Origin: Acidobacteriota bacterium
Lineage (GTDB): Bacteria; Acidobacteriota; Vicinamibacteria; Vicinamibacterales; UBA8438
DNA length: 64,000 bases
Assembly (NCBI GenBank): GCA_009838525.1
Contig: VXRJ01000016.1
Span: 124,001 to 188,000 of the forward strand
Direction: 5' to 3'
Positions 6,414-37,722 of the stretch are shown here, piece by piece; the first letter of the stretch is position 1; each line of letters begins with the position of its first letter. Under the pieces are notes generated by a model. That model was not told the DNA's origin. It did no database searches and saw nothing but the letters and a program-made list of their open reading frames with translations. A program made the translations under genes and the position numbers.

Positions 6414-7571
6414 ATGTCTGAACTTCCTCCGAATCAGCAATCCTCCACCGTTGCCGCCCAGGCGGGCGGATGGGTCGATCCGCCCACCGGCGGACTGGTG
6501 CCGCCGATCCATACGGCGGTGCAGTATCAGCGGACGCCGGAAGGCAAGGCGACCGCCGGACGCATCTACACGCGCGATCAGAACCCGACCTACGAACCGC
6601 CGGAGCGGCTGCTCGCCACCCTGGAGGGCGGGCGCGCCGCGATGCTGTTCAGCTCCGGCGTGTCGGCCGCCATCAGCGCGTTCGAGACCCTGGAGATCGG
6701 CGCGCACGTCGTCGCGCCGGTCGAGATGTACTGGATGCTGCGCCGCTGGCTCGAGATGCAGCATGAACGGAAGCGGTTCGAGCTGGAGCTGGTGCCGAAC
6801 GGCGACCTGGACGCGCTGCGCGCGGCGCTCCGTCCCGGCGAGACCCGCATCGTCTGGGGCGAGACTCCCGCCAACCCCGGCGGCGTCATCACCGACCTGC
6901 GGGCCGCCGCGGAGATCGCGCACGAAGCCGGCGCCCGGTTCGCCGTGGACAACACGGTGCCGACGCCGGTCCTGACGCGGCCCATCGAGCATGGCGCGGA
7001 CCTCGTGATGCACTCCGCGACCAAACAGCTCAACGGCCACTCCGACGTCCTGACGGGAGCGCTCGTCACCGCCGAGGAAGACGACTTCTGGAGGGCGTGC
7101 CGCCGCGAGCGGGCGTTTCGCGGCGCCGTCATCGGCCCCTTCGAGAGCTGGCTGCTGCTGCGCGGCATGCGGACCGTCGTCCTGCGCGTCACGCAGTCGG
7201 CGCGGAGTGCACAGCAGATCGCCGAGCACTTCGTCGGCCATCCGGCCGTCGCGGACGTGCGCTATCCCGGCCTGCCCGACTTCCCGGGGCATGCGATCGC
7301 GGCGCGCCAGATGGACGGGGGCTTCGGATCGGTGGTCTCGATGCGGATGGCGGGCGGCGCGCCCGCCGCGGCGCGGGTCGTCCGGTTGTTCCGCCTGTTC
7401 CACAACGCGACGTCGCTCGGCGGCGTCGAGAGCCTCGCCGAGCAGCGCCGGATGTCGGAAGGGCCCGGCTCCCCCGTTCCCGACGACCTCGTGCGCTTCT
7501 CGGTCGGCATCGAAGCGGCCGAAGACCTCATCGCCGACATCGAGCAGGCGTTCGACCGCCTCTCCGCCTGA
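6414..7571 (+). CDS. PLP-dependent trans-sulfuration enzyme (cystathionine gamma-synthase/lyase family)
   Basis: Fold-type I PLP enzyme of the Cys/Met metabolism family, 385 residues, acting on cystathionine-type or O-acylhomoserine substrates. Visible features: the TRDQNPT...LATLEGG N-terminal signature, FAVDNTVPTPV (the aspartate that binds the pyridine nitrogen), the PLP lysine in HSATKQLNGH near residue 204, and the SLGGVESLAEQRR motif near the C-terminus. The precise reaction (synthase, beta-lyase or gamma-lyase) cannot be decided. The 3' end of this gene recurs as a degenerate copy at 17415-17590. Confidence 0.88.
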   Translation: MSELPPNQQSSTVAAQAGGWVDPPTGGLVPPIHTAVQYQRTPEGKATAGRIYTRDQNPTYEPPERLLATLEGGRAAMLFSSGVSAAISAFETLEIGAHVVAPVEMYWMLRRWLEMQHERKRFELELVPNGDLDALRAALRPGETRIVWGETPANPGGVITDLRAAAEIAHEAGARFAVDNTVPTPVLTRPIEHGADLVMHSATKQLNGHSDVLTGALVTAEEDDFWRACRRERAFRGAVIGPFESWLLLRGMRTVVLRVTQSARSAQQIAEHFVGHPAVADVRYPGLPDFPGHAIAARQMDGGFGSVVSMRMAGGAPAAARVVRLFRLFHNATSLGGVESLAEQRRMSEGPGSPVPDDLVRFSVGIEAAEDLIADIEQAFDRLSA

Positions 7572-7585
7572 GGGAGCCCGGCCCC

Positions 7586-8086
7586 ATGGCGCAGCCTGAC
7601 CCAACGTTCCGGATCGACCCGGCCACGCCCGCCGACGTCCCCCTCATCCTCGCCCTCATCCGGGAGCTGGCCGAGTACGAGAAGCTCCTGGACGACGTCG
7701 TGGCAACCGAGGAAATGGTCCACGAGGCGCTCTTCGGCGACTCGCCGCACGCCGAGGCGGTAGTCGCCCGCGTCGGCGACGAGCCCGTCGGCTTCGCCCT
7801 CTACTTCCACACCTTCTCGACCTTCCTCGCTCGCCCCGGCCTCTACCTGGAGGACCTCTACGTCCGCCCGGCGCACCGCGGAAACGGCTACGGCCGCCGG
7901 CTACTCGTGCACCTCGCCCGCATCGCCGTCGACCGCAACTGCGGCCGGTTCGAGTGGTCCGTCCTCGACTGGAACGAACTGGCGCAGGCCACCTACCGCC
8001 GCGCCGGCGCCGTCCCGATGGACGAGTGGACTGTCTGGCGGCTTACCGGGGAGTCGTTGCGAAAGCTGGCCAACGAGGCGGATTGA
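7586..8086 (+). CDS. GNAT N-acetyltransferase, spermidine/thialysine acetyltransferase type
   Basis: Cytosolic acetyl-CoA-dependent acetyltransferase of 166 residues. The acetyl-CoA-binding loop is RPAHRGNGYGRRLL, preceded by LYLEDLYV. The following FEWSVLDWNELAQATYRRAGA and MDEW are typical of the diamine/thialysine acetyltransferase subgroup, so a small amine is the likely substrate. It starts at ATG, 14 nt after the trans-sulfuration gene, probably in one operon. The first codons of this gene are also present in the relic at 17415-17590. Confidence 0.85.
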   Translation: MAQPDPTFRIDPATPADVPLILALIRELAEYEKLLDDVVATEEMVHEALFGDSPHAEAVVARVGDEPVGFALYFHTFSTFLARPGLYLEDLYVRPAHRGNGYGRRLLVHLARIAVDRNCGRFEWSVLDWNELAQATYRRAGAVPMDEWTVWRLTGESLRKLANEAD

Positions 8087-12459: not shown

Positions 12460-12667
12460 CGGGCGCTACGCCCTGCGCCGCTTCTCGGCATCGTCGGCGG
12501 ACGGACTCGCCGCTTAGATCAGGACGTTGATGTCAACGAACCGAATGCCGGTCGTGCAAGGCGTCGCGACTGAGATTGTCGGCCGCCCTGAATCCGCTGC
12601 GGGTCGCGCAGATGTCTTCGAAGATCTCGTCCAACAACCGCCCTCGGCGTTCGCCCTCCGTCTCCGC
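12460..12667 (-). pseudogene. Degenerate VapB 3'-end plus VapC 5'-end relic (copy 1)
   Basis: About 205 nt match 16676-16882 almost end to end (roughly nine bases in ten by eye). That segment holds the 3' end of an antitoxin and the first codons of a PIN toxin. Here the toxin ATG has become ATT and the frame hits a stop right after a degenerate FVDINVLI stretch, so nothing can be made. The rest of the 12430-12796 gap holds no gene that I can see. Confidence 0.65.
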
Positions 12668-12796
12668 TGGACGCGCCCGCGTGCTCCGCATCATGTAACG
12701 TGTCCTCTTAACCTTCTAGCTTGGCTACGTCTGGCAGGCGCCCCAGGAGCCATCAGTCCTGATGGATCACACTTGTCCGTGGTACAGTGGGTCCAA

Positions 12797-16624: not shown

Positions 16625-16680
16625 GTCGCTACCTCTCTGCTTCAAGCCTGCAGCGTACCGCCGCCTTCCCGCAGCAGGCT

Positions 16681-16761
16681 CTACACCCTGCGCCGCTGCT
16701 CGGCATCCTCGGCGGACGGACTCGCCACGTAGATCAGGACATTGGTGTCAACGAACCGCAT
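16681..16761 (-). pseudogene. Truncated VapC (first 26 residues of a PIN toxin)
   Basis: The frame MRFVDTNVLIYVASPSAEDA starts inside the last codons of the antitoxin gene, as in intact vapBC pairs, but stops after 26 codons. Only the first catalytic aspartate of the PIN fold remains. The same truncation point is present in the degenerate copy at 12460-12667, so the toxin was probably already cut before the segment was duplicated. Confidence 0.6.
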
Positions 16762-17038
16762 GCCGGTCGTGCAAAGCTTCGCGACTGAGATTGTCGGCCG
16801 CCCTGAATCCGCTACGGGTCGCCCGGATGTCTTCGCAGACCTCGTCCAACAACCGCCCTCGGCGTTCGTCCTCGGTCTCCGCATCCGACCCGCGCGCACC
16901 GCTTCCGTCGGAACCGTCGCGAACGAGACGTTCGAGGAAACTCCGCACGAGTGCTGACACGGAGGTGTCCAGTTCGGCAGCGCGAATGCGGGACTGTCGA
17001 TACGTGTCGTCGTCCACCGACACCGTGATGTTCTTCAT
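16748..17038 (-). CDS. VapB-type RHH antitoxin, partner toxin truncated
   Basis: Antitoxin of 96 residues: the ribbon-helix-helix N-terminus MKNITVSVDDDTYRQSRIRA, then an LDTSVSALVRSFLERL helix. The C-terminal toxin-binding tail (ERRGRLLDEVCEDIR, FRAADNLSREALHDR) recurs in fragments elsewhere in the island. It overlaps the stop of the ParB-like relic upstream (ATGA) and the start of the truncated toxin downstream. It is intact by length and may still bind DNA, but it has no local toxin to neutralise. Confidence 0.7.
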   Translation of the reverse strand: MKNITVSVDDDTYRQSRIRAAELDTSVSALVRSFLERLVRDGSDGSGARGSDAETEDERRGRLLDEVCEDIRATRSGFRAADNLSREALHDRHAVR

Positions 17039-17414: not shown

Positions 17415-17590
17415 TCGCCGAGCAGCGCCGCACGTCGGAGGGATCCGGCTCCCGTTCCCGACGACCTGGTGCGCTTCTCGGTCGGCATCGATGCGGCGGA
17501 GGACCTGATAGTCGACTTCGAGCAGGCGTTCGACCGCCTGTCCGCGTGAGGAGCTTCGCCCCCATGGCGCAGCCTTGCGCAAGCGTTCGT
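17415..17590 (+). pseudogene. Degenerate second copy of the 3' end of the trans-sulfuration gene and the first codons of the GNAT gene
   Basis: About 175 nt align with 7435-7605: the last 45 codons of the PLP enzyme (EQRRMSEG through the stop), the spacer, and the ATGGCGCAGCCT start of the acetyltransferase. A 2-nt deletion within the CCCCC run and several substitutions disrupt the frame. The order and orientation match the intact genes 10 kb to the left. The sequence between 17293 and 17415 has no gene I can recognise. Confidence 0.7.
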
Positions 17591-17617
17591 TTGCTCGCCT
17601 CACAAGGGAGTAGAACA

Positions 17618-18292
17618 ATGGTCTCCAACGGTCAACTGAGCATGTTCGAATCCGACACCTCCGCGGCGTTGCTGCCGTTGCCGGAGCACCTCAACTACGG
17701 CATTCACGATCGCGGGATGCACAGGATTCCGGGGATACACGGTCTGCACTACTACCCCGGGTTCCTCGACGAGCACGATCAACACATGTTGATCGACCGC
17801 ATCGATGCGAGACCGTGGCGAACAGACCTGGAACGTCGCGTCCAGCACTACGGTTGGCGCTACAACTATCGAACGCGAACCGTAACACCGGATATGGACC
17901 TCGGGCCGTTGCCCGATTGGGTTAAAGAGATTGCGGCACGGCTGTACACCGAAACAAGACTGTTTGACCGCATTCCAGATCAGGCAATCGTCAACGAATA
18001 CCAGCCCGGGCAGGGAATCGCCTTGCACGCGGACCGGCAGTGTTTCGGTGACACCGTTGCCACGCTATCGCTGGGCGATGACTGGGAAATGCGCCTGCGG
18101 CCTGTAGGAGGATCAGCAGCGGAAGACAGACGTATTCTGCTCGCCCAAGGATCTGTGCTTATCTTGACCGCTGACTCTCGGTCACGATGGATGCACGGCA
18201 TAGACAAGCGCAGAACGGAAAAGAGCGCTGTCGGTCAACGTGATCGCCGGCGACGTTTGTCGTTGACATTCAGGACCATGCTGGCTCGCTGA
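17618..18292 (+). CDS. AlkB-like 2-oxoglutarate/Fe(II)-dependent dioxygenase
   Basis: Predicted oxidative demethylase that repairs alkylated bases, 224 residues. The iron ligands are visible as H-x-D in GIALHADRQC near residue 137 and the distal histidine in SRWMHGIDKRR near residue 190. The C-terminal arginines that hold 2-oxoglutarate are in RRRRLSLTFRTM. NEYQPGQGI and the nucleotide-recognition lid before it are typical of AlkB/ALKBH. The ATG at 17618 has AAGGGAG 7-13 nt upstream. It lies alone between relics and may serve repair or protection of the cell's DNA. Confidence 0.85.
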   Translation: MVSNGQLSMFESDTSAALLPLPEHLNYGIHDRGMHRIPGIHGLHYYPGFLDEHDQHMLIDRIDARPWRTDLERRVQHYGWRYNYRTRTVTPDMDLGPLPDWVKEIAARLYTETRLFDRIPDQAIVNEYQPGQGIALHADRQCFGDTVATLSLGDDWEMRLRPVGGSAAEDRRILLAQGSVLILTADSRSRWMHGIDKRRTEKSAVGQRDRRRRLSLTFRTMLAR

Positions 18293-18313
18293 GAGCCCGG
18301 CCCAACGAAAAGA

Positions 18314-18458
18314 CGTTCTCATCGTCCGAGTTCCTCCGGGGGGTTCCTGAAGGCGGCGTCCACTGGGCCGGTGCGCCGCCTGCTGGCCGGCGCCGCGGAG
18401 CAGGGAGCAGGCCGGCCGGTCTGCTTCGTGAGATTGTTCTTCAGTTCGAAGGTGAACG
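18314..18458 (-). pseudogene. Two short hsdR relics
   Basis: 18314-18361 resembles 26333-26381 (codons near the C-terminus of hsdR), and 18419-18458 resembles 28641-28680 (the hsdR nuclease motif region). Both have the same orientation and order as in the intact gene. The sequence between them, 18362-18418, is GC-rich and unmatched. Together with the pieces at 18741-18822 this looks like a collapsed second type I restriction-modification locus. Confidence 0.6.
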
Positions 18459-18662
18459 CCCTGCCATCACAACGAGGCGTCGCCCCGTCTCCGCTTTCGC
18501 CCGATCACGGTCGTACAGTTCGTCCCGCGACAGATTGTCGATAGAACGCAGCCCCACACCCTGCGCTTCGAAATCCGCCACAACCTCCCGCAGCAGCCGC
18601 CGACGCCGCTCCAGCAGCGTCTCCGAACCTACCTCCTCGACCGATACCGTGATGTTCCTCAT
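18441..18662 (-). pseudogene. VapB-like antitoxin with its RHH helices deleted
   Basis: The frame begins MRNITVSVEEV, as in the intact antitoxin at 16748-17038, then jumps to LLERRRRLLREVVADFEAQG and SIDNLSRDELYDRD, the toxin-binding tail. The roughly 40 residues carrying the two DNA-binding helices are absent. Its C-terminal codons run into the hsdR relic. A 73-residue peptide could be made, but it would not be a normal antitoxin. Confidence 0.5.
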
Positions 18663-18740
18663 CGTCACAGTCTTACAGTTTCAGCGTATCGCAACTCCAG
18701 GCTCCGCCTGCGTTCCCGCGCTCCCCGTGCCGCCGCACCG

Positions 18741-18822
18741 TCTCCGCCGATGGATTGGCAGTCATTAGGGAGAACGTGAAGTCGAACTCGCGGGACGGGA
18801 AGGCACCGTTGGCGAGGAAGGA
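18741..18822 (-). pseudogene. Short hicB and hsdM relics
   Basis: 18741-18767 resembles 33954-33980 (first codons of hicB), and 18777-18822 resembles 35069-35113 (hsdM around its NPPYG-preceding region). Orientation and order match the intact hsdM-hicB block further right, with everything between them lost. Confidence 0.55.
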
Positions 18823-18858
18823 CGGTGACCGCGACCACTTGACACATATACTGCAGGC

Positions 18859-19137
18859 ATGACGCGACTGGATCGAATCACTCGTGATCCCGACGTCATG
18901 GGTGGACGCCCATGCATTCGACGGCTTCGCGTTACGGTCGGGACCATCGTGGGACTGCTGGCCACCGACCATCACGCAGACGACGTGTTGGCCGCCTACC
19001 CGTATCTTGAGCGCGACGACATCCGCCAAGCGCTGGCCTACGCTGCATGGCGCAGTGAGGAGCAGGAAGTCGCGGTCGGTTCAGCCGACGAGCCCGCGAG
19101 CCTCGACGGCGGGGTTGCGAGCCGGTCGGGATGGTGA
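18859..19137 (+). CDS. DUF433 antitoxin-like protein
   Basis: Protein of 92 residues. ITRDPDVMGGRPCIRRLRVT is the standard DUF433 opening, followed by VGTIVGLLATDHHADDVLAA and YPYLERDDIRQALAYAAWR. DUF433 proteins are predicted antitoxins for PIN-like DUF5615 toxins. It is followed after 6 nt by a second DUF433 gene and then a DUF5615 gene, so the locus has two antitoxins for one toxin. The ATG has no strong Shine-Dalgarno sequence. Confidence 0.8.
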   Translation: MTRLDRITRDPDVMGGRPCIRRLRVTVGTIVGLLATDHHADDVLAAYPYLERDDIRQALAYAAWRSEEQEVAVGSADEPASLDGGVASRSGW

Positions 19138-19143
19138 ATTAGC

Positions 19144-19380
19144 ATGGAGAGGATGCAGTCTGAATCGTGCTCCGTCGCCCACAGCGACCCCAAGATCTCC
19201 GGGGGCACGCCCGTCTTTCGCGGCACACGGGTGCCGGTTCAGTCGCTCTTCGACTACCTTGAAGGCGGAGAGACTCTCGACCAGTTCCTCTATCAGTTCC
19301 CGTCGGTGACGAAGGAGCAGGCGCTCGCTGCGCTGGATCTGGCGCGCGATTTCATCCTGGCCCGTGCGCGTTCTGCTTGA
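19144..19380 (+). CDS. DUF433 antitoxin
   Basis: Protein of 78 residues with the DUF433 core DPKISGGTPVFRGTRVPVQS, then LFDYLEGGETLDQFLYQFP and a C-terminal ALAALDLARDF helix. Its last 17 nt overlap the start of the DUF5615 toxin, the usual arrangement of this toxin-antitoxin family. It is the direct partner of that toxin, more likely so than the DUF433 copy just upstream. Confidence 0.85.
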   Translation: MERMQSESCSVAHSDPKISGGTPVFRGTRVPVQSLFDYLEGGETLDQFLYQFPSVTKEQALAALDLARDFILARARSA

Positions 19381-19840
19381 CGAGAATCTGCCACGCGCTC
19401 TCGCCTCGGAACTCACGGGGCACGACGTCAGCACCGTGCAAGCCGCGGGTTGGTCGGGAACTCAGAACGGTGAGTTGCTTCGGCAGGCTCGCGAGAGATT
19501 CGATGCCCTGTTGACCATGGATCGGGGCCTCCCGCACCAACATAATCTGAGCCTCCTCGGCCTCCGCGTGCTGATCATCCGCGCGCCATCGAACCGCATG
19601 GTCCACCTGAGATTTACTCACCCTTCGTCGATGACCTTGCGCGTGACCGTACTGCGCCGTGACGAACCTGTGGTCCCGTCGTTCGCTCGTTTGCCGCGGA
19701 ACACCGCCCAAGAGGCGGAGGTCCGGATGTTGAGATGGTACCAGAAGGATGCGTCACCGCTCAGGTGTGTCCTGGCTCGACAACCTATCGAAGACGGAGC
19801 CCATTCTCGGGCTAAACAGACGATCATAGGTCTTGATTAG
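19364..19840 (+). CDS. DUF5615 PIN-like toxin with an unrelated C-terminal tail
   Basis: The first 80 residues are a typical DUF5615 (Mut7-C-like) PIN-related domain: MRVLLDENLPRALASELTGH, VSTVQAAGW, GELLRQARERFDALLTMDRG and LRVLIIRAPSNR. Normal family members end about 30-40 residues later. Here the sequence changes after APSNR and continues for another 75 residues of unrelated sequence. The frame also overlaps the 3' end of the convergent dGTPase gene by 87 nt. I infer that a rearrangement cut the toxin's 3' end and fused it to foreign sequence; activity is uncertain. The start is the GTG inside the antitoxin gene. Confidence 0.65.
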   Translation: MRVLLDENLPRALASELTGHDVSTVQAAGWSGTQNGELLRQARERFDALLTMDRGLPHQHNLSLLGLRVLIIRAPSNRMVHLRFTHPSSMTLRVTVLRRDEPVVPSFARLPRNTAQEAEVRMLRWYQKDASPLRCVLARQPIEDGAHSRAKQTIIGLD

Positions 19841-26149: not shown

Positions 26150-29100
26150 CTACCCACGAGACGCCGCCGACACCTCTGATGCACTCTCCGTTCTCTCGCA
26201 GGCCAGATCGAACACCGCGTCGGTCATCCAGCGCTTGAATCCCTCGTTGTCCATGAACTGCTTGAACAACTGGGTGTCGTCCTTCATGACACTCGTCACC
26301 ACCCGCAGCAACGCCTTGCCATGCTCGATCCGCGCGTTCTCGTCGTCCGAGTTCCTCCGGGCGTTCTTGAAGGCGGCGTCCGCGGCGACGCGTGAAGGGA
26401 TCGTCTCGGTGATGAGCTGCCGCACGCGGTCGGCGTCCTGCCACACGATGTCGCCGAAGTGGTCGTTGAACTGCTTCACGATGTCCGACAGCCGCTTCAG
26501 TTCCGGATCGGCAACGTGGCCGCCGCCGCCGGGGGCCGTCGGGTCGATGTCGGAGTCCTCGTCGGGCAGCATGAGGCTCTGCACGGTTTGCTTCTCGACC
26601 CGGTAGCTGTCCATGTCGATGGCGTCGAGGATGCCCCTCGTCGGGTCTTCCTCCGGTGGCGACGGTAGCTTCGGGATCAGGAAGTTCAGGAAGATCGACC
26701 GCTTCTCCCAGTCCGGATTGTCGTACGGAAGCACGCACGCGAGGAATCCGTAGGCCCTCATGAAGCCCTTGGCCTTGCCCTTGAATGCCACCTGCCCGTC
26801 CTCGTCAAGATCCTGCATGTACGCCGCCACGCACACGTCGAGGATCGGATCCAGCTGGTCGCGCTCCGCACCGCCCAGATAGCGGTCCACGAGTTCGTCG
26901 ACCTGCTCGGGCCTGTAGACCTGGGCCGCGTCCAGATCCGCCTGGAGGTTGTGGAGCCGGTTCGGATCGGTCTCGTCCGCCAGGATCGTCGCGCGATGGT
27001 AGTCGGCGAAGGCGTCGCGGATCGTGTCCGCGTCGTTCAGGAAATCGAGCACGAAGACGTCGTGCTTCTTCGGGTGTGCCCGGTTGAGCCGCGAGAGTGT
27101 CTGCACCGCCTTGATGCCCGACAGCGTCTTGTCCACGTACATCGTGTGCAGCAGCGGTTCGTCGTAGCCGGTCTGGAACTTGTCGGCGCAGACCAAGAAG
27201 CGGTAAGGGTCTTCCTGAATCTTCTCGGCGATCTGGCTGGCCGGGAAGCCGTTCAGCGACGCCTCGCTCACCCTCTCGCCGCCGAACTCCGGCTCTCCGG
27301 AGAATGCGGCGATGGCCCGGTACGGGCTCTTGCGTTCACGCAGGTAGTCGCGGATGGCGTGAAAGTACTGGATCGCGCGCGCGACGCCGTTGGTGACCAC
27401 CATCGCCCGCGCCTGGCCGCCGACCTTGTTGTGCCCGAGCACCTGAGCGTGAAAGTGGTCGACCATGATCTCGGCCTTGAGCCCGATCGCGTGCTCGTGG
27501 CCCTCGACGAATCGCCGCAGCTTCTTGTGGGCCTTCTTGACGTCGAACTCCGGATCGTCCTCCACCGTCTTGGTGAGCTTGTAGTAGCTGTCCACCGGCG
27601 TGTAGTGCGCCAGCACGTCCAGAATGAACTTCTCCTGGATCGCCTGCTTCATCGTGTAGCTGTGGAAGGCATGGTGACGGACGGCGCCATCCGGCTGCGG
27701 GTCCGGTTCGCCGAAGATCTCGAGGGTCTTGTTCTTCGGGGTGGCGGTGAATGCGAAGTAGCTGGCGTTCGGGAGTAGTCGGCGCGACTCGATCAGCCGA
27801 TTGATGCGATCCTCGGTGGTCTCTTCCTCGACCTCCTCGCCGGCCTTCCCCAGCGCTGCGGATATCGACGCCGAAGTGCGCCCGCCCTGGCTGGAGTGCG
27901 CCTCGTCGATGATGATGGCGAACCGCCGATCCCGCTGCTCGTCCCCGATTTCGTCCAGGATGAACGGGAACTTCTGGACGGTGGAGATGATGATCTTCTT
28001 GCCGGCCTCGATGAACCGCCGGAGGTCGCCGGAACGCGCGGCACGCCCCACAGTTGCGCCGACCTGGGCGTACTGCCGGATCGTGTCGCCGATCTGCCGG
28101 TCGAGGATGCGCCGGTCCGTGACTACGATGATCGAATCGAAGACCTGCCGACCGTCCTTCGCGAGTCCGATCAATTGATGGGCCAGCCACGCGATGGAGT
28201 TGCTCTTCCCGCTGCCCGCCGAGTGCTGGATCAGGTAGCGCCGGCCTGTACCCTGCGCCGAGGCGCTGGCCAGGAGGCGGCGCACCACATCGAGCTGATG
28301 GTAGCGCGGCCAGACCTGCGTCCGCCTCTTTCGGCCCGTCTTCTCGTCCTTGCCGACCACCACCTGGGCGTAGTTTTCGAGGATGTTCGACAGGCTCTCG
28401 CGAGTGAGCACCTCGCGCCACAGGTAGTCCGTCTTGATGCCGCTCGGGTTCGGCGGATTCCCGGCCCCATCGTTCCAACCCCGGTTGAACGGCAGGAACC
28501 ACGACGCCTTCCCCTTCAGATGCGTGCAGAAGCGCACCTCGCTCTCGTCCACGGCGAAGTGGGCGACGCACCGACCCAGTTCGAACAGCTTCTCCCGCGG
28601 ATTTCGGTCCCTCCGGTACTGCTCAACCGCATCGTGGACGGTCTGCTTCGTGAGGTTGTTCTTCAGTTCGAAGGTGAACACCGGCAAGCCGTTGATGAAC
28701 AACCCGATGTCGAGCGCCCGCTGCGTATCGTCGCGGCTGTACCGGACCTGCCGGGCGACGGTGAAGCGGTTCTGCCCGAAGCGCTCCCGCGCCTGCTCGT
28801 TCGCAGCCGATGGCGTGCCGTAGAACATGTCGAGATCGTGCGCGCCGTGCTTGATCCCGTGGCGCAGCACGTCGATCGTGCCGCGCTTGCTGATCTCTCC
28901 CTGTAGTCGCGCAAGGAACTTGCGCCGCGTCGGGCCCTCCTCGTCCAGCCCCAGCGCGTCGGCGGCTTCTGGTTGCGTGGCGTTCAGGAAGGCGACCAAC
29001 TGCACCCGATCTATGCAGAACTCGCGGTCGTAGTCGTGGGGGTTGCCGCCGGTCCACCCGACGCCGCCGTAGGCGGGTCGTGCCTCTGAAACCTTGCCTT

Positions 29101-29188
29101 CCTTCGGAGGGTCGCAGGGCTGGCCGGTCAGGGCCGTGCAGATGAGCCGTTCGAGACCCCGCTCCGAGGTGTCGGTGACCTCAGTCAT
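26150..29188 (-). CDS. hsdR: Type I restriction enzyme R subunit
   Basis: Motor and nuclease subunit of a type I restriction-modification complex, 1012 residues. The N-terminal nuclease core reads LDIGLFINGLPVFTFELKNN (D and E-x-K, about residues 160-178). The SF2 translocase follows: Walker A HSAGSGKSNSI near 321, IIIDEAHSSQGG near 424, FTATPKNKT near 475 and the TLSRLNRAHP motif VI near 700. The C-terminus is helical and contacts the modification complex. The start at 29188 overlaps the end of a small upstream ORF. The coding sequence is intact. Pieces of a second copy survive at 18314-18458. Confidence 0.95.
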   Translation of the reverse strand: MTEVTDTSERGLERLICTALTGQPCDPPKEGKVSEARPAYGGVGWTGGNPHDYDREFCIDRVQLVAFLNATQPEAADALGLDEEGPTRRKFLARLQGEISKRGTIDVLRHGIKHGAHDLDMFYGTPSAANEQARERFGQNRFTVARQVRYSRDDTQRALDIGLFINGLPVFTFELKNNLTKQTVHDAVEQYRRDRNPREKLFELGRCVAHFAVDESEVRFCTHLKGKASWFLPFNRGWNDGAGNPPNPSGIKTDYLWREVLTRESLSNILENYAQVVVGKDEKTGRKRRTQVWPRYHQLDVVRRLLASASAQGTGRRYLIQHSAGSGKSNSIAWLAHQLIGLAKDGRQVFDSIIVVTDRRILDRQIGDTIRQYAQVGATVGRAARSGDLRRFIEAGKKIIISTVQKFPFILDEIGDEQRDRRFAIIIDEAHSSQGGRTSASISAALGKAGEEVEEETTEDRINRLIESRRLLPNASYFAFTATPKNKTLEIFGEPDPQPDGAVRHHAFHSYTMKQAIQEKFILDVLAHYTPVDSYYKLTKTVEDDPEFDVKKAHKKLRRFVEGHEHAIGLKAEIMVDHFHAQVLGHNKVGGQARAMVVTNGVARAIQYFHAIRDYLRERKSPYRAIAAFSGEPEFGGERVSEASLNGFPASQIAEKIQEDPYRFLVCADKFQTGYDEPLLHTMYVDKTLSGIKAVQTLSRLNRAHPKKHDVFVLDFLNDADTIRDAFADYHRATILADETDPNRLHNLQADLDAAQVYRPEQVDELVDRYLGGAERDQLDPILDVCVAAYMQDLDEDGQVAFKGKAKGFMRAYGFLACVLPYDNPDWEKRSIFLNFLIPKLPSPPEEDPTRGILDAIDMDSYRVEKQTVQSLMLPDEDSDIDPTAPGGGGHVADPELKRLSDIVKQFNDHFGDIVWQDADRVRQLITETIPSRVAADAAFKNARRNSDDENARIEHGKALLRVVTSVMKDDTQLFKQFMDNEGFKRWMTDAVFDLACERTESASEVSAASRG

Positions 29189-29345
29189 CGTCCTCGTCCC
29201 CGCATTCTGTAGTCCGTATCCGCACGCCCTTGCTCGTCACCACGACTATCGCGCCTCTCCGGAACTCGTGGCCGTGCCGATCGATTAAGCCGCGCATGCG
29301 TCCAAAAGGAACTTCACGACGCCTCTCGAACCCCAAGTCGGTCAT
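29181..29345 (-). CDS. Small ORF overlapping the start of hsdR
   Basis: A 54-codon ATG frame (MTDLGFERRREVPFGRMRGL ... ending in GVRIRTTECGDEDDD) stops 8 nt inside hsdR, in the manner of a coupled upstream gene. The product has a basic centre (RHGHEFRRGAIVVVTSKGV) and a very acidic end. No family is recognised. It could be a translational leader for hsdR or a tiny regulatory protein; chance is not excluded. Confidence 0.45.
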   Translation of the reverse strand: MTDLGFERRREVPFGRMRGLIDRHGHEFRRGAIVVVTSKGVRIRTTECGDEDDD

Positions 29346-29720
29346 ACACCTGCTCGCCCGCCCCGGAACGATGCGCGAATTGCAGCCAAGCCTACATGTC
29401 CTCTGGTTCCACTTCCGGGTACTCTCCCCAGGTTCGTCTCTGCCGTGTCTCCCGCCGCGCGCATTCCCAGCACATCCCGCACCACCATTCGCGCGCCCGA
29501 ATGTTCCGCCTTCCGCTGAAGATATCCGCCCGCAGCGTCACGGGATCGAGCAGTCCAATTCGTTGTTCATGGCCTTTTCCCCAAAGTTGCTACCCGCATC
29601 TCGTCCCTCACAACTGTCATCCAGCGCGAACGCGTGTGCCCTGACCGACCAGCAGCCTCTCACGGACCCTGACCCCTAAGAACCCGCCGTATTCCCTGAT
29701 GGGCCAATAACGCACTGTTC
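29346..29720. other. 375-nt intergenic region, no gene recognised
   Basis: Between the small ORF before hsdR and the 3' end of the OLD-like ATPase gene. Frames on both strands are proline- and serine-rich translations of GC-rich DNA without motifs. A promoter for the hsdR transcript may lie here, but I see no clear boxes. Confidence 0.4.
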
Positions 29721-31490
29721 CTAGTCGACAGCCACGCTCCGAAACACCTCCAGTCGGCGAATCAGCGCCGCCAGATCCTCCGGAACCTCCGCCGCCTTGT
29801 AGCAATCTAGTATTCTCACATCCGTCAATGTAATACCATGACTATCCTGTAGCCGGTCGCGTACCGCCCGCAGCACCTCTTTACCCGCTACAATTTCAAG
29901 TCTTGATTGCATGACATCCCATTTCTCTTCAAATATTCTAAGTGCTTCAGTCGTAAGCGTCGCCGGGTCTCTTCCCGTCGATTTAAAATAAGCACAGTAC
30001 TTACTTATATACTGACCGCTGCATTTCTCCTTGAGCGAATCCGTAATAGACTCCAATATATTAACAATATCGACACCATCCTCAGGCGACCCGCCGCTTC
30101 GTCGAGCCCGGTCCTCTACTGCCTTTGTTGATGCTCGATGCAGAATCTCCGGAGACAGCAGATAATTCTCAAGCTCCTTGCGACCGTGAAAATGGGCAAA
30201 TTCTATTTCTTCCTCTAGTTGGCCCTTGAGCCGAGTCAACTCTTCCTCACAGCGATAATCTCTATCGAAGATCGCGACGATGCTCAACTCTGCCCCTAGG
30301 GTACTCTTGAATCCCCACGCGAAGGCCTTGATTTTAGTCCACGAATCGAAACCCCCTAGTGCAATTGCCGTCAGCCCACTACCGGCCGCCAATTCATCAA
30401 AACCAAGAATCTTTGCAAATCTCCTTATTGTCTTGTAGTCATGCAAACTCTCCACAAACAGAATGCGCCGATTTCTTGCCAACTCCGTGAGTGTCAGATT
30501 CTGAATCGAACCGATATTGTCGAGCGCTTGCTGAACCCCTTCAATATCCCGCAAGCGACGTGCTGATTGTAGAGCCTTGTCTACCAGCAATATCTCGCTG
30601 GGATCCGCCTCGCTCAGGATTTCCACTGAATGAGTCGCAAGCACGATATCGGGACGAACCTCTCTGAGAATTCCCAACAGTTGCCTTTGCACTTCAGGGT
30701 GCAAATAGACTTCTGGCTCGTCAACGACTAGCAGATCCGATCCGGCACATCGCGAAATGTGCGTAAGCAGTTGGCACCAGATTTGAAACCCCAAGCCGGA
30801 CCAATAGAGTTCTCGGTCAATTCGGTTCTCCGAAACGAACATAGTCAACTGATCTCGTAACGGGTCGAGTCGTTCAGGCTGCTGAATGGACATGCCGGGC
30901 CATGTGTTTTCCACAAGGCGCCGAAAGTCGTCGAAGCCATCTGGGTTTTTCCTCCAGTAGTTCCTAAAATGACGGCTGGCGGCCGGTGTACCAGCGGCGC
31001 GTCTCACAGTCTCGTCGGTGACGACGGACTCATGCTGTTCAATGGGACCGAGCACTGGAATAGTCTGGACCACTTCGGGAAATGCCTTCCGAAAGGCAGC
31101 CGGCGTGGTCGGTGGTCGTTGCGCTGTTTCCCATGACATCTTCACGCCTCCTTCCACTGGAAAGAGCAGGTGAATTTTGTTTCCGCGGGAGTAGCGTACT
31201 TCAATACGACTATCCGACTTCGTGTAGCCCGAGTGTACGTTCTCAAGGGAGATCGGCACCATGTTCTCGGGTATGTTGTGACCCCAGGAAACCGTGCCTG
31301 TAGGCGTCTTTACCAGTGAGGCTTTGCGAGAACGTGCTCGTCGTAACGACTGTTCAAGAACCCGAAATGCGCTCAGAACTGTGGACTTTCCGCTGTTGTT
31401 GGGTCCGACGAGCACGTTCATGCGCTGCAGGGATACGGAGTAGTTCCGCAGTGCCTTGAAGTTCTTGAACTTAACGGACGTTATGGACAT
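29721..31490 (-). CDS. OLD-family-like ATPase with C-terminal TOPRIM-like region
   Basis: Protein of 589 residues. The N-terminal ABC/SMC-type ATPase has Walker A (VLVGPNNSGKSTVL, about 33), a WSGLGFQIWCQLL signature region, Walker B (LLVVDEPEVYLHPEVQ, about 250) and the H-loop ATHSVEIL. The C-terminal half begins with RRILFVESLHDYKTIRRFAK and continues to VAIFDRDYRCEEEL, the E...D-x-D layout of a TOPRIM nuclease. No UvrD partner (as in Gabija) is next to it. It sits inside the restriction-modification locus between hsdS and hsdR. GC content is clearly lower than in the neighbours, so it was probably inserted on its own. The ATG of MSITSVKFKNFKAL is chosen. Confidence 0.8.
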   Translation of the reverse strand: MSITSVKFKNFKALRNYSVSLQRMNVLVGPNNSGKSTVLSAFRVLEQSLRRARSRKASLVKTPTGTVSWGHNIPENMVPISLENVHSGYTKSDSRIEVRYSRGNKIHLLFPVEGGVKMSWETAQRPPTTPAAFRKAFPEVVQTIPVLGPIEQHESVVTDETVRRAAGTPAASRHFRNYWRKNPDGFDDFRRLVENTWPGMSIQQPERLDPLRDQLTMFVSENRIDRELYWSGLGFQIWCQLLTHISRCAGSDLLVVDEPEVYLHPEVQRQLLGILREVRPDIVLATHSVEILSEADPSEILLVDKALQSARRLRDIEGVQQALDNIGSIQNLTLTELARNRRILFVESLHDYKTIRRFAKILGFDELAAGSGLTAIALGGFDSWTKIKAFAWGFKSTLGAELSIVAIFDRDYRCEEELTRLKGQLEEEIEFAHFHGRKELENYLLSPEILHRASTKAVEDRARRSGGSPEDGVDIVNILESITDSLKEKCSGQYISKYCAYFKSTGRDPATLTTEALRIFEEKWDVMQSRLEIVAGKEVLRAVRDRLQDSHGITLTDVRILDCYKAAEVPEDLAALIRRLEVFRSVAVD

Positions 31491-31562
31491 GGCACAATGT
31501 GCAGCGCGCTCGCGCTCTCGCAACAATCGCCGACGGCGTTCCAGTGGAATCTCCGCGGGCAC
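31491..31562 (-). pseudogene. Antitoxin-tail remnant in front of the OLD-like gene
   Basis: The 24 codons before the ATPase start read MPAEIPLERRRRLLRERERA, sharing LERRRRLLRE with the VapB-like fragment at 18441-18662. They are in frame with the ATPase, so a longer fused product is possible, but they look like the end of an older antitoxin gene. Confidence 0.4.
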
Positions 31563-31935: not shown

Positions 31936-33489
31936 TCACGCCCGCCCGTCCGGCTCCTCAGGGTCGTCGCGCCTATCACGCGCGGGGGTCCCGCAATCCT
32001 CGCGATCGGACCCTATGATCTCACCCTCGGAATCCGACCCGTCGCCCGTGGCGTTCACACCGTCGAGCTTGTCGTCCATAGCGAGGGGATCGATCTCCGG
32101 CAGCCCGGCTGCAACATCGCGAACGTCGAGTTTGCCAGTAACAACATCAGCGAACAGACGTGTGCGGTAGTCCGTCACCAGTTGGATTCCACGACGCGCA
32201 ACCTCCGCGGCCATAGCCAGAGCCGCCAATCGCTCCTTGATGTACTGCGAGATGTGCCTTTGTTCATCCAGGTGCGGCACCGGCAGCCAAAGCCCCCGAA
32301 CGTCTTCGCCATTAACCTTGAACGTCCCAACCGCTGTGTGTGCTACTGCCTCGATCTGGCTCCGAACGACTCCAGAATTGAGTACAGCCACGACAAACCG
32401 CGGAAGCGCCGTGCGAGTGAGTCGGACCCGCATCAGCAGGTCGGGATAGACCCACTCTTCCATTGCTCGGTCGACCAAACCAGCCCGACCGACCAGCCGA
32501 AGGTTTCCGTTGCCTCTCACGAGCAAGATGTCGTCGGCGACCAGCCCATAGACGCCTCTCCGGATGCCCGGATCAAGCGCTACCATCTTGACGTCTGCCT
32601 CGTGCACATCAACGACACCATCCCGGATGGCAGAGATCGCAAAGGATCGAACAGTGCCGTCCTCGACTGCTCGCGGAGAGATCCCGTTCTTGGGCCCCTC
32701 TCCGATCAGTCGGGAGAACCTGATGGCTTCCCAATGCTCAGGCATCTCCGCTAGCCACTCTACGCCAGCGTTCTTGTACGACGAGTACGGTCGCTCGGTG
32801 CGAACGTCGATCCGACCGGTTACAGCCTCGTGGATACTGGCCTGCTTCTGTTCCTCCAGCAGCGCGATCAGTTTCTCCTTGGCGCGGATGTAGCGCCGGA
32901 TACGACGGTCGATGTGGTCGAGGAAGCGGACGATGGCGGCTTGTTCAGCGGGCGGAGGAACCGAGAACCACGCGGACTTGATTCCGTTGTGCGTAAGGCC
33001 GTACCTAGTCACGCCATTGGCACGTACATGAAACTGATACGCAACCGCCGAGCTCTGTGCCGCTCGAAACAGGAAACCACCGCTGACACAGTCTGAAAGG
33101 GGCCGAAGCAACGCAAGGTGGTAGCCACAAATCGTGTCATCTGTGGCTCCCTCGACAAGGGCTGGCACGCCTATGTCGTTCCACGCCTCCGAGTCCTTCG
33201 TGATGAGGACGTCACCGGCGCGTAGCCGAAACTTCTCGATCTCTTCCGACGCTGCCGTCGCAACCATGAGCCGCATTCCCGTCCGGATCCGGCCAGCCTT
33301 GTAGACATCCACGTAGTTACAGAGCCGTACTGGCCGTTCACCTTCCCTTGAGTGCTTGTCGACGCTGCTGACTCGCATCTCGGCGATCGTGCGAAGCCGC
33401 CGCACCTCCCAATGCGCCGGTACTGCTCCGAGCCACTCCACGCCGGAGTCCTTGTACCTCGAATACGGCTTGAGCTTGGCGGCGGTCAC
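31936..33489 (-). CDS. hsdS: Type I restriction-modification specificity subunit S
   Basis: DNA-recognition subunit of 517 residues with two target-recognition domains. Each half begins with a matching signature: YSRYKDSGVEWLGAVPAHWE at about residue 8 and YSSYKNAGVEWLAEMPEHWE at about residue 230. Each ends in a conserved helical spacer (EQAAIVRFLDHIDRRI and EQRHISQYIKERL). The two halves recognise the two parts of a bipartite site. The GTG at 33489 begins 2 nt after the hicA stop codon. The C-terminal 40 residues are acidic and probably disordered. Confidence 0.93.
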   Translation of the reverse strand: MTAAKLKPYSRYKDSGVEWLGAVPAHWEVRRLRTIAEMRVSSVDKHSREGERPVRLCNYVDVYKAGRIRTGMRLMVATAASEEIEKFRLRAGDVLITKDSEAWNDIGVPALVEGATDDTICGYHLALLRPLSDCVSGGFLFRAAQSSAVAYQFHVRANGVTRYGLTHNGIKSAWFSVPPPAEQAAIVRFLDHIDRRIRRYIRAKEKLIALLEEQKQASIHEAVTGRIDVRTERPYSSYKNAGVEWLAEMPEHWEAIRFSRLIGEGPKNGISPRAVEDGTVRSFAISAIRDGVVDVHEADVKMVALDPGIRRGVYGLVADDILLVRGNGNLRLVGRAGLVDRAMEEWVYPDLLMRVRLTRTALPRFVVAVLNSGVVRSQIEAVAHTAVGTFKVNGEDVRGLWLPVPHLDEQRHISQYIKERLAALAMAAEVARRGIQLVTDYRTRLFADVVTGKLDVRDVAAGLPEIDPLAMDDKLDGVNATGDGSDSEGEIIGSDREDCGTPARDRRDDPEEPDGRA

Positions 33490-33490
33490 A

Positions 33491-33739
33491 TCAACCGAAG
33501 AGGGTGTCGCGTACGGCCTGCTTGGGCAGGCCGAGGAATGCCGCCACATCGGCAGTGATTGCGTCTAGCGTACCGATCCGCACGTCCCGGTGCCGCGGTA
33601 CGGTCACCTGATGCCGATCGCCTCCCGTCGTCAGGGTCATTGTCATGTGGCTGCCCCGAGTCCGGGTTACGCGGTAACCGTAGTGGCGGGCGAGCCGCCG
33701 GGCGACCTCGGTGCCCGAGAGGTCGCGGGGCAGCTTCAT
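33491..33739 (-). CDS. hicA: HicA-type mRNA interferase toxin
   Basis: Toxin of 82 residues. MKLPRDLSGTEVARRLARHY, the catalytic histidine in TRGSHMTM, and HQVTVPRHRDVRIGTLDAI match HicA. It starts within the stop of the hicB-like gene (ATGA) and ends immediately before hsdS. Its position inside the restriction-modification operon suggests a post-segregational or anti-loss role for the locus. Confidence 0.85.
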   Translation of the reverse strand: MKLPRDLSGTEVARRLARHYGYRVTRTRGSHMTMTLTTGGDRHQVTVPRHRDVRIGTLDAITADVAAFLGLPKQAVRDTLFG

Positions 33740-34002
33740 ACCGCGATGGCCTCCTCCCGAACGAGATGCAATCGGATTACGCGCGGCACCTCGTCCTCAT
33801 CGAAGTGACAGCGCACGGCGTCTCGCGCCATCTCCTTCAGATCGTCCCAGTTCTCGCCCTGCGTGTAGATGCTGTAGCCGAGCGCCCTGGCATCGTACCC
33901 GCCTTCGACAGCTTCCGTGACCTCGAAGATGATCTCCGCTGGCCGCGCCCGCGACTCCGCCGATGGATTGTCAGTCATTGGCCACTCCGTTGCGCTCGTC
34001 AT
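33736..34002 (-). CDS. hicB: HicB-like antitoxin
   Basis: Protein of 88 residues. IIFEVTEAVEGGYDARALGY and GENWDDLKEMARDAVRCHFD correspond to the short HicB fold that folds onto HicA. A separate DNA-binding domain is not present, so repression may depend on other factors. It starts within the hsdM stop (ATGA) and overlaps hicA by 4 nt, so M, B, A and S are translationally coupled. Confidence 0.8.
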   Translation of the reverse strand: MTSATEWPMTDNPSAESRARPAEIIFEVTEAVEGGYDARALGYSIYTQGENWDDLKEMARDAVRCHFDEDEVPRVIRLHLVREEAIAV

Positions 34003-35993
34003 CGCTCCGAGACCGGTTCGCGGTAGCCCAGGATCTCTGCCAACAGCCCCTCGTTCTGTTGCTCCAGGGCCATGATATCCGCGCGGATCTCGGTCAGCGT
34101 CCGCATTGGCTTCGGCTTGTAGAAATACCGCGTGAAGCTGATCTCGTAGCCGACCTTCACGTTGTCGGGTCGATACCAGGCGTCGGCGGCGTACGGCAGA
34201 ACCTCACGCCGCAGGAACGCCTCGATGCCGCCTTCCTCCTGTAGCGGGATCTGCTCCGTGTCGCGCAGGTCGGTGTCCGGTTCGTACTCCACGACCGCGG
34301 ACCGACCGTCGATGGTAGCCGGGCATAGGCCGCGGAGCGGGTCGGCCTGTGTGCCGCGCTTGTGGATCTTCCTGATGATCGCCGGGGCGTCCTCGCTCCG
34401 CTTGCGGTGCTCCTTCAGTTCCCTGATCTCGGCCGCCGTGTAGGCCCGGTTCGGATCGGCGCCGTTGATGCGCAGGGGCCTCTCCACCGTCACCTTCCAG
34501 TAGCCGAAGGCAGCGTTGTCGAAGATCTTGCTCTCCTCGGTCTCTTCGAAGGCGAGGTGCGTGTCACAGATGCGGGCGATGTCGTCGTCGCCCAGTTCGC
34601 AGTTCTTCTTGCCGAGGTTCTTGCGGAGCGGCCGGTGCCACTTCGTGGCGTCGATCAACTGCACCTTGCCCCGGCGGTGCGCGGCCTTGCGGTTGGTGAG
34701 CACCCAGACGTAGGTGGCGATACCGGTGTTGTAGAACATGTTGAGCGGGAGAGCGACGATTGCCTCTAGCCAGTCGTTCTCGATGATCCAGCGGCGGATG
34801 TTGCTCTCGCCCTGGCCGGCGTCACCGGTGAACAGCGAGCTGCCGTTGTGGACCTCGGCGATGCGGCTGCCGAGCGGCGTGTCCTGCTTCATCTTCGAGA
34901 GCTTGTTGGCGAGGAAGAGCATCTGGCCGTCGCTGGAGCGGGTGACCAGGGAGTACTCGGGATCGCCCGCGTGCTCGATGACGAAGCGCGGGTCGCGCAT
35001 GTCCTTCTTGCCGCCCATGCGCTCTAGGTCAGTCTTCCAGCTCTTGCCGTAGGGCGGGTTCGAGAGCATGAAGTCGAACTCGCGCGACGGGAAGGCATCG
35101 TTCGCGAGCGTGGAATGCTCCGGTCCGCCGACGATGTTGTCGGCCGCCTCGCCCTCGCCCTTCAGCAGCAGGTCGGCCTTGCAGATGGCATAGGTTTCGG
35201 CGTTGATCTCCTGGCCGTACAGGTGCGTGGCAACGTCCTTGCCGTGCTCGGCCCCGATCTGCCGCAACGTCTCCTCGGCCACGGTAAGCATGCCGCCGGT
35301 GCCACAGGCGCCGTCGTAGAGCAGGTAGGTGGCGGACTTGATCTCCTCAGCGACGGGCAGGAAGACGAGCTTCGCCATCAGCCGCACGGCGTCGCGCGGT
35401 GTCCAGTGCTCGCCGGCTTCCTCGTTGTTCTCCTCGTTGAAGCGGCGGACCAACTCCTCGAAGATCGAGCCCACGGCGTGGTTGTCGAGGCCAGGATGCC
35501 GGACTGAGCCATCGGCGTTCATCACCGGTTTCGGACTGAGGTTGATCTCGGGTGAGGTAAGCCTCTCAATCAACGTGCCCAAGGCGTCGGCCTTCGAGAG
35601 CCGCGGAATCTGGTTACGGAACTCGAAGTTGTCGAGGATGTCCTGCACGTTGGGCGAGAACCCGTCGAGGTAGGCGCGGAAATCGGCCTCGAGCTGCTGG
35701 CGACTGGCACGGGCACGCAGGTCCCGTAGCGTGAACGGCGACGTGTTGTAGAACGCCTGCCCCGCCGCCTCACGCAGGGAAGACTTCTGCTCGATGATGC
35801 CGTGCTCATCGAGCACGGCCTTCATGTCGAGCACGGCCTGTTTGCCGTCTTCCAGAACAGCGTCCAACCGGCGCAGCACCGTCATCGGCAGGATGACGTC
35901 GCGGTACTTGCCGCGAACGTAGAGGTCGCGCAGCACGTCGTCGGCGATGCCCCAGATGAAGTTGGCAATCCAGTGCAGGTCGTGATTGCTCAC
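33999..35993 (-). CDS. hsdM: Type I restriction-modification N6-adenine methyltransferase subunit M
   Basis: Methyltransferase subunit of 664 residues. The N-terminal helical domain (LHWIANFIWGIADDVLRD) is followed by the SAM-binding motif LYDGACGTGGML near residue 240 and the catalytic NPPYG near 316. The C-terminal part includes the helical segment LEQQNEGLLAEILGY, which contacts HsdS. The GTG at 35993 (VSNHDLHWIANF) is preferred because AGAGGA lies 8 nt upstream; the longer 36035 start adds 14 unconserved residues. A relic of this gene lies at 18777-18822. Confidence 0.95.
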   Translation of the reverse strand: MSNHDLHWIANFIWGIADDVLRDLYVRGKYRDVILPMTVLRRLDAVLEDGKQAVLDMKAVLDEHGIIEQKSSLREAAGQAFYNTSPFTLRDLRARASRQQLEADFRAYLDGFSPNVQDILDNFEFRNQIPRLSKADALGTLIERLTSPEINLSPKPVMNADGSVRHPGLDNHAVGSIFEELVRRFNEENNEEAGEHWTPRDAVRLMAKLVFLPVAEEIKSATYLLYDGACGTGGMLTVAEETLRQIGAEHGKDVATHLYGQEINAETYAICKADLLLKGEGEAADNIVGGPEHSTLANDAFPSREFDFMLSNPPYGKSWKTDLERMGGKKDMRDPRFVIEHAGDPEYSLVTRSSDGQMLFLANKLSKMKQDTPLGSRIAEVHNGSSLFTGDAGQGESNIRRWIIENDWLEAIVALPLNMFYNTGIATYVWVLTNRKAAHRRGKVQLIDATKWHRPLRKNLGKKNCELGDDDIARICDTHLAFEETEESKIFDNAAFGYWKVTVERPLRINGADPNRAYTAAEIRELKEHRKRSEDAPAIIRKIHKRGTQADPLRGLCPATIDGRSAVVEYEPDTDLRDTEQIPLQEEGGIEAFLRREVLPYAADAWYRPDNVKVGYEISFTRYFYKPKPMRTLTEIRADIMALEQQNEGLLAEILGYREPVSER

Positions 35994-36900
35994 CGGACGT
36001 TTCCTCTGCTCCGCTCCTCCCAGACGTACCGGCAACTCGGCATCGGCTGGCGGCGGCGCTCTTCACGCGTTCCGTACTTTCCGGCCTTCCGCCAGCCCGG
36101 AAGTGTAACGGAGCGTAGCGCACCAACATTCAGCGACCGGCACCCGGCGATGTACTGGTCAGGCTCTCGGCCACGTGGTCGATGTAGACGCGGCTGCCCC
36201 GCGGCACCGCCTTGGGCAGTCGCAACCCTCCCACTCGGGAGCTGCGGCGGCCAGCGAATTGAGGTTCAAGGCCCTCGGTCTGCTCCCTTCGTTGTAGAGT
36301 GCCGGACCTTGACGAACCGTGGGCTGCTACCGCCACTCGACGTACAGGATGGGTATTCCGTTCTCGATTCGTAAGAACACGAAGCTCAACCGGTTAGACC
36401 GTCGGACCTCCGGAGCCGTTCTGGATTCATTTGACATTCCAGAAGTCCTGGCATCCATGGCGAAATCGAGAATCCCATGGGTCCAAGACGGTCACAAGAC
36501 TCTGCACTTCTGGGTTGCCACTGACAACACATCGCCCGACCGCGTGAGCGCCGCGGCAGGATGGCGTCACCGCCGCCACTTGGCATCCGCTGACCGTCTT
36601 AGCTCAGGCGCCGATTCCCCCAACCTTCCAGCCGCCACCCGGCGACGGCGCGCGTAGCTTCCCGAACGCAGACCTCCGAACACCGCCCCTCTGCAGCCAA
36701 AGGCCCCGTCCCCTCGGTGCCGCCGCTTCAGCCGTCGTTCGCCGCCGTACACGTCGACCGCGCCCGTGGTTATCGGCTATAATGTCAATCAAGGTCAACT
36801 CGCTGTAGGCTGGCCGCCTGCACGAATACTACGATCTCGATCCCTCGCCCGCACGGCCGTACGAGTCTGAGGGTCACAACCGCTCGGGAATCCGGGAGGC
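35994..36900. other. 907-nt intergenic region separating the restriction-modification locus from the ubiquitin-like operon
   Basis: Divergent promoter region: hsdM reads left and the Ubl-E2 gene reads right. A 112-codon frame at 36319-36657 and shorter ones on the other strand lack motifs and look non-coding. The only regulatory candidate I can point to is the promoter at 36754-36783. Confidence 0.45.
36754..36783 (+). promoter_or_regulatory. Possible sigma70-type promoter of the ubiquitin-like operon
   Basis: TCGACC (36754-36759) and a perfect TATAAT (36778-36783) are separated by 18 nt, about 118 nt before the first ATG. A perfect -10 box is unusual in this GC-rich window. Confidence 0.35.
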
Positions 36901-37722
36901 ATGATGAGCTACAAAGTGATCATTGATGGCAAGCGCTACGAATTCCAGGATCCCGTGCCGACCGGCCGACAGCTCCTCGACTGTGCCGACAAGCATCCTG
37001 CCGAAGAGTACCGCGTACTCGTGATGGGGCCGCGCCGCCAACTTGAAGACATCGACTTGGAGGAAACCACCGATCTGCGCGAGCCTGGCCGCGAAGTCTT
37101 CTTCACATTCAAGAGCGACCGATCGTTCAACTTCATGCTCGACGGCCGTCGCCAGCCTTGGGGCAACGATACGATTACGGAGACTATCCTGCTCCAGATT
37201 GCTGGCCTTGGCGGCAATCATCGTGTCTGGCAAGAACATAAGAACGAGCCGGACAAGCTGCTCGATCGCGGCGAAACCGCAACCCTGAGCGGCGAAGGGG
37301 TAGAACGTTTCTTCACCGGCGAGCGTGAATCGACAGCTGGCTCCACCATTATTCCCGCGCCCGACCGTCGCTACCTTGAGGACCACGGCTTGCAACCAGA
37401 CGCGATCATCGAAAACAACCAGAAGGGTCTGGTGTTCCCTTCGTACCCACTGCCCAATGGCAAATTCAATCGACCTCAAACCGATATTCTGATCCTCCTT
37501 CCCGCCGGATACCCCGACGCGCCACCAGACATGTTCTTTTGTAACCCACCAATCCTCTTGGCGGACGGTTCCGCGGCCGCCAGCACCGACGTCCAGTTCC
37601 CATTTCACGGCCGTCTCTGGCAGCGCTGGAGTCGGCACAATTCAGCTTGGCGCCCCGGCATCGACGGAATCCATACGATGCTTCAGCGCGTGAATGCCGC
37701 GCTTCAAAGTGCCACGCGATGA
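36901..37722 (+). CDS. Tandem ubiquitin-like (multiubiquitin) domains fused to a prokaryotic E2-like domain
   Basis: Protein of 273 residues, first gene of a ubiquitin-like conjugation operon. Residues 3-75 form one beta-grasp unit (YKVIIDGKRYEFQDPVPTGR ... GREVFFTFKS). Residues 77-142 form a second (FNFMLDGRRQPWGNDTITET ... GEGVERFFTG). Residues 160-270 resemble the Prok-E2_E family: LVFPSYPLPNGKFNRPQTDI, PAGYPDAPPDMFFCNPP and GRLWQRWSRHNSAWRPGIDG. The cysteine in MFFCNPP is the only plausible catalytic one I see in that domain. GGGAGG precedes the ATG. No Ubl C-terminus ending in GG is exposed, which is odd for a modifier. Confidence 0.8.
   Translation: MMSYKVIIDGKRYEFQDPVPTGRQLLDCADKHPAEEYRVLVMGPRRQLEDIDLEETTDLREPGREVFFTFKSDRSFNFMLDGRRQPWGNDTITETILLQIAGLGGNHRVWQEHKNEPDKLLDRGETATLSGEGVERFFTGERESTAGSTIIPAPDRRYLEDHGLQPDAIIENNQKGLVFPSYPLPNGKFNRPQTDILILLPAGYPDAPPDMFFCNPPILLADGSAAASTDVQFPFHGRLWQRWSRHNSAWRPGIDGIHTMLQRVNAALQSATR

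Follow-up and report, generated by a model that had tools for sequence, protein, structure and literature searches.

How did short pieces of a type I restriction-modification (hsd) operon come to lie in close succession in the gap that separates a gene for an AlkB-like 2OG-Fe(II) oxygenase from a DUF433 gene? The AlkB-like gene occupies 17546-18292; the interval between it and the DUF433 gene (18293-18858) belongs to a 64,000-nt stretch of DNA from an Acidobacteriota bacterium, hereafter the window. A self-BLAST of the window found five matches to the hsd locus within 18314-18816, each of ~30-48 nt with 80-94% identity, with E-values of ~1e-12 to 5e-4 for a search space equal to the window. 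The matched locus contains the following genes:

26150-29188, minus strand: intact hsdR, 1012 aa (Pfam HSDR_N, SWI2_SNF2, ResIII)
29721-31562, minus strand: AAA ATPase gene between hsdR and hsdS (Pfam AAA_21/AAA_15)
31936-33549, minus strand: hsdS (Pfam Methylase_S)
33491-34002, minus strand: hicA (33491-33739; Pfam HicA_toxin) and hicB (33736-34002; assigned by position and conservation in L049/L050)
33999-36035, minus strand: intact hsdM, 678 aa (Pfam N6_Mtase, HsdM_N)

The five pieces are, in order:

18314-18361, plus strand: remnant of the hsdR 3′ region, 48 nt, 92% identical to 26335-26381 (E 5e-11), oriented as in the intact locus
18370-18416, minus strand: inverted hsdR remnant, 47 nt, 87% identical to 28240-28286 on the opposite strand
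18414-18460, plus strand: remnant of the hsdR nuclease region, 44-47 nt, 94% identical to 28636-28682 (E 1e-12)
18721-18766, plus strand: remnant of the hicB start, 80% identical to 33934-33979 (E 5e-4, a weak match)
18770-18816, plus strand: hsdM remnant, 47 nt, 89% identical to 35062-35108 (E 6e-10)

Chance similarity was ruled out by the E-values together with the uniqueness of the matches genome wide. When the whole 4.29-Mb genome was searched, the four best pieces gave E values of 4e-9 or lower and the hicB piece 2e-4; no comparable match was found outside the window, the hsd locus being the sole strong target. With hsdR and hsdM as queries, the only further hits in the genome were this interval and a second, distantly related system located on a different contig. 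The assembly consists of 38 contigs and the interval is located well within one of them. Aligned by software, the five matches were significant and consistent in order, as the preliminary description had expected.

The ends of the pieces were sharp, identity falling to the random level beyond them, and the same boundaries were obtained when the pieces were aligned to dozens of other hsd loci. Such alignments to relatives also reproduced the inversion of the 18370-18416 piece. The minus strand of 18414-18460 encodes TFELKNNLTKQ, and the same site was matched in more than 40 hsd loci. The hsdM piece adjoins the catalytic motif, with boundaries that were constant against dozens of hsdM genes. In the hicB piece, the left part is doubtful and the right-hand ~29 nt are secure. 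Short stretches of bases with no assigned source separate the pieces, whose lengths are oddly alike (44-48 nt, the uncertain hicB piece aside); an exactly uniform length was suggestive, though insecure, since the ends are uncertain by a few bases and the pieces of relatives differ. No intact reading frame of a parent gene is present in the hsd pieces, which retain at most 48 nt from genes of 0.3-3 kb. hsdR is represented by three pieces and hsdM by one, and no hsdS piece was found in the interval.

The middle of the interval is occupied by two further parts, both related to ribbon-helix-helix (RHH) antitoxin genes of other loci:

18490-18623, minus strand: 3′ part of an RHH (FitA/VapB-like) antitoxin gene, 73-79% identical to L059, L054 and L065, with tblastn matches to the antitoxins of L083 and L120
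18632-18707, minus strand: 5′ part of the RHH antitoxin gene, 89% identical to L060 6447-6519

A gap visible in the alignment indicates that ~100 nt are missing between the two parts. Judged from these matches, 18499-18707 is a shrunken RHH antitoxin gene, separate from the hsd pieces, and no counterpart of it was found in the intact hsd locus of the same genome. The preliminary description had listed five ordered pieces within 510 nt; its two hsdR pieces, hicB start and hsdM piece were recovered, whereas its "antitoxin-tail" piece, a match of 18585-18625 to the AAA gene at 31515-31555, was not significant (E 0.04), the antitoxin accounting for the similarity.

The order of the hsd pieces is that of the genome's own locus, hsdR-hicB-hsdM, and four of the five orientations agree with it; the probability that a monotonic order and at least four agreeing orientations arise by chance is 0.003. 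Once the antitoxin is included, the order corresponds to that of the intact loci L083 (Thermoanaerobaculia) and L120 (Acidobacteria), in which the DNA matches fall in the same succession and an RHH antitoxin, accompanied in L120 by a PIN toxin, is encoded between hsdS and hsdR and in their direction. Protein matches placed the RHH antitoxin likewise between hsdS and hsdR in L071 (Pseudomonadales). Loci of this kind come from other phyla and, as far as bin names tell, include some of sponge MAGs. Since intact loci of other lineages hold the RHH antitoxin at this position, the order hsdR-antitoxin-hicB-hsdM appears to be that of a complete ancestral operon, gene order and strand being as in the intact relatives with one piece inverted. 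Thus, the order claimed in the preliminary description from the 26-35 kb region stands for hsdR, hicB and hsdM, while the antitoxin is ordered only with respect to L083 and L120, and the inverted hsdR piece had gone unmentioned. Operons of type I restriction-modification systems with embedded toxin-antitoxin genes are among the closest likenesses, the genome's own locus carrying HicAB; the interval differs from them in having no open hsd gene and an internally deleted antitoxin.

These results bear on the idea that short hsd fragments were captured at random, as templated insertions, where the DNA broke between the two flanking genes. Insertions of this kind would fit the similar lengths of the pieces, the inverted one and the short unassigned bases between them, but not the collinear order, nor the antitoxin lying between the hsdR and the hicB/hsdM pieces as in the intact operons of other lineages, nor an architecture shared with the relatives G020 and G010 (see below). 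We regard it as very improbable, and on order and shared architecture the preliminary description was right to set random insertion aside.

Sequence divergence informed us about the age of the copy. Of the 142 positions in the hsdR pieces, the interval and the genome's own gene shared 129, while no relative with all three pieces exceeded 114. Intact alleles of hicB and hsdM were more alike to each other than to the remnants, as expected if the latter have drifted. The differences between the remnants and the genome's own genes were distributed over the codon positions as 8/11/7, compared with 39/33/104 among intact alleles (P = 0.005); the remnants seem to have changed without codon-position constraint, as expected of a dead copy that has lost its coding constraint. 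Also, at 28240-28286 they retain states common to relatives that the own hsdR has lost. Because the differences are even across codon positions and states shared with relatives are kept in this hsdR piece, the remnants belong to an old copy and were not recently copied from the gene as it is today.

The same substitutions speak to a functional alternative, in which the interval would be an antisense or guide-like array of segments aimed at hsd genes. Read from the plus strand, four of the five pieces would indeed be antisense to hsd mRNAs. However, the pieces abut with no repeats between them, so that the array does not resemble a CRISPR in this respect, no Rfam match was obtained, one piece is wrongly oriented, conserved segments were not preferred among the retained pieces (P = 0.52), the substitutions carry no codon-position constraint and the array is not conserved in relatives. 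On the absence of repeats and of conserved-segment enrichment, the unconstrained substitutions and the lack of conservation, this alternative was rejected as scarcely conceivable.

A fuller or intact second hsd copy was not found at this site in any relative, and in those relatives where the AlkB and DUF433 flanking genes were found, the two are located separately. The full copy anticipated by the preliminary description, which would support a relic but does not define one, was thus missing at the same site, and less-decayed counterparts were found instead in related genera. G020 (L060) retains ~60 nt of the hsdR 3′ region and a short piece of the 5′ region; these two stubs are followed by an intact PIN/RHH pair, directly after which come hsdM stubs of 148 and 85 nt. 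Similarly, two hsdR stubs precede a PIN/RHH pair in G010 (L049 14069-17122), where an hsd locus whose hsdM is intact lies a few kb away. In G005 (L063), hsdM is reduced to stretches of 76, 117 and 71 nt adjoining hicAB and two other toxin-antitoxin pairs; it has undergone at least three internal deletions, yet carries just 2 private substitutions across 247 sites. In G023 (L056), G011 (L054) and L083, one or two internal deletions have affected hsdM or hsdR, the last one, from a Thermoanaerobaculia MAG, carrying a second, internally deleted hsdM (711-1422) ~9 kb from an intact hsdM. Piece sizes in relatives range from ~27 to 157 nt, and their junctions show 0-5 nt of exact homology. We considered that internal deletions in relatives might preserve the frame; five of the first six junctions fitted, but later cases in L083 and in the L054 AAA gene shift it, and the idea was dropped. 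Toxin-antitoxin genes remain intact in relatives while the surrounding hsd genes are stubs.

Taken together, we consider it likely that 18314-18816 is the functionless remnant of a second type I hsd operon, a close relative of the intact one at 26-36 kb, that was eroded by deletions. The inverted piece, the alike lengths, the weak hicB piece and the absence of an hsdS piece count against this reading. The ancestral order on the minus strand would have been hsdM - hicB(A) - [hsdS] - RHH antitoxin(/PIN toxin) - hsdR, and the copy presumably stood where its remnants stand today. Over 95% of its length would have been lost, apparently in several steps, through deletions of ~0.35-5 kb and one small inversion, after which the leftover stubs would have drifted without selection, leaving a locus that is presumably dead in transcription and function. 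Selection was likely lifted because the copy was redundant with the intact locus, or because its acquisition in a defence island had failed; the embedded toxin-antitoxin pair likely persisted longest.

To what extent independent deletions can produce such a pattern was evaluated by simulation, reducing 9.9 kb to ~250 nt by random deletions with a mean size of 30 to 3000 nt. No more than 0.1% of the runs ended with five or more pieces lying 300 nt or more apart in the source, and ~1% or fewer with four or more. Since simple random deletions seldom leave so many widely spaced pieces, deletion was possibly clustered, through template switching in one or a few events, or shaped by a factor outside the simulation such as a protected toxin-antitoxin pair. 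The older duplicate cut by deletions that had been proposed from the sequence is therefore upheld by the order, the parallels and the relaxed codons, and requires one inversion in addition, whereas its "sequential" character was rarely reproduced by the simulated deletions and is at most a possibility.

A rival reading would be one complex event with no stepwise loss, in which a polymerase repairing or replicating the hsd operon skipped forward several times by template switching and copied ~50 nt at each landing, once from the opposite strand. Short pieces, large skips, abutting ends and an inversion, a combination that is rare under simple sequential deletion, are what such an event would leave, and the G005 hsdM, with three or more deletions set against two private substitutions, suggests cuts close in time. 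The junctions of relatives are divided, some of them showing 5-nt microhomology (CCTCG, TCAAG) and others only 0-2 nt. Against a single event are also the variable piece sizes in relatives and the antitoxin, which is absent from the genome's own intact locus, so that the former presence of a full second operon is required in any case. We judge the single event improbable and retain the relic of a deleted operon as our reading. More tentatively, and with considerable doubt, we suggest that redundant defence operons are not cleanly deleted in these lineages and that a recurrent process leaves collinear strings of 30-150-nt stubs, as seen in at least four genomes; candidates would be template-switch deletions that occur in clusters, or deletion held in check by embedded toxin-antitoxin pairs.

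General accounts of bacterial gene remnants were found in the literature, and no description of this locus. In Rickettsia and other bacteria, accessory genes, often recently acquired, have decayed to short fragments that are recognised through relatives, and type I restriction-modification genes are among the remnants listed (PMC2374718). Compared with these, the interval differs in that an operon of ~10 kb has shrunk to ~0.5 kb, leaving ~50-nt pieces, one of them inverted, with large skips between them. As a well-resolved fossil, it would document how operons turn over within a defence island, and together with the parallel, less-decayed cases of related genera it makes it possible to study which parts of a restriction-modification operon, embedded toxin-antitoxin pairs included, disappear first and which later. 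As relatives keep intact toxin-antitoxin genes amid hsd stubs, it becomes testable whether addiction delays the disappearance of the DNA around such genes.

The surroundings of the interval are also composite. Two diverged direct duplications (12462-12692 and 16677-16905, 88% identical; 7435-7609 and 17415-17588, 86%) bring parts of other loci just upstream, and 16.3-18.9 kb is therefore a mosaic. Within it, 16353-16670 matches a DUF433 antitoxin found beside hsdR in G010. On the other side, 18859-19840 contains two consecutive DUF433 genes and then a DUF5615/PIN-like gene, a toxin-antitoxin-like set. In the intact locus, ~265 nt between hsdR and the AAA gene (29289-29554) are ~78% conserved beside hsdR in several relatives; they may correspond to a decayed DUF433 gene, since the homologous stretch overlaps a DUF433 match in L050 and L054. 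Finally, 37647-39116, adjoining the hsd locus, encodes a protein with ThiF/E1-like and JAB domains, possibly a component of another defence system.
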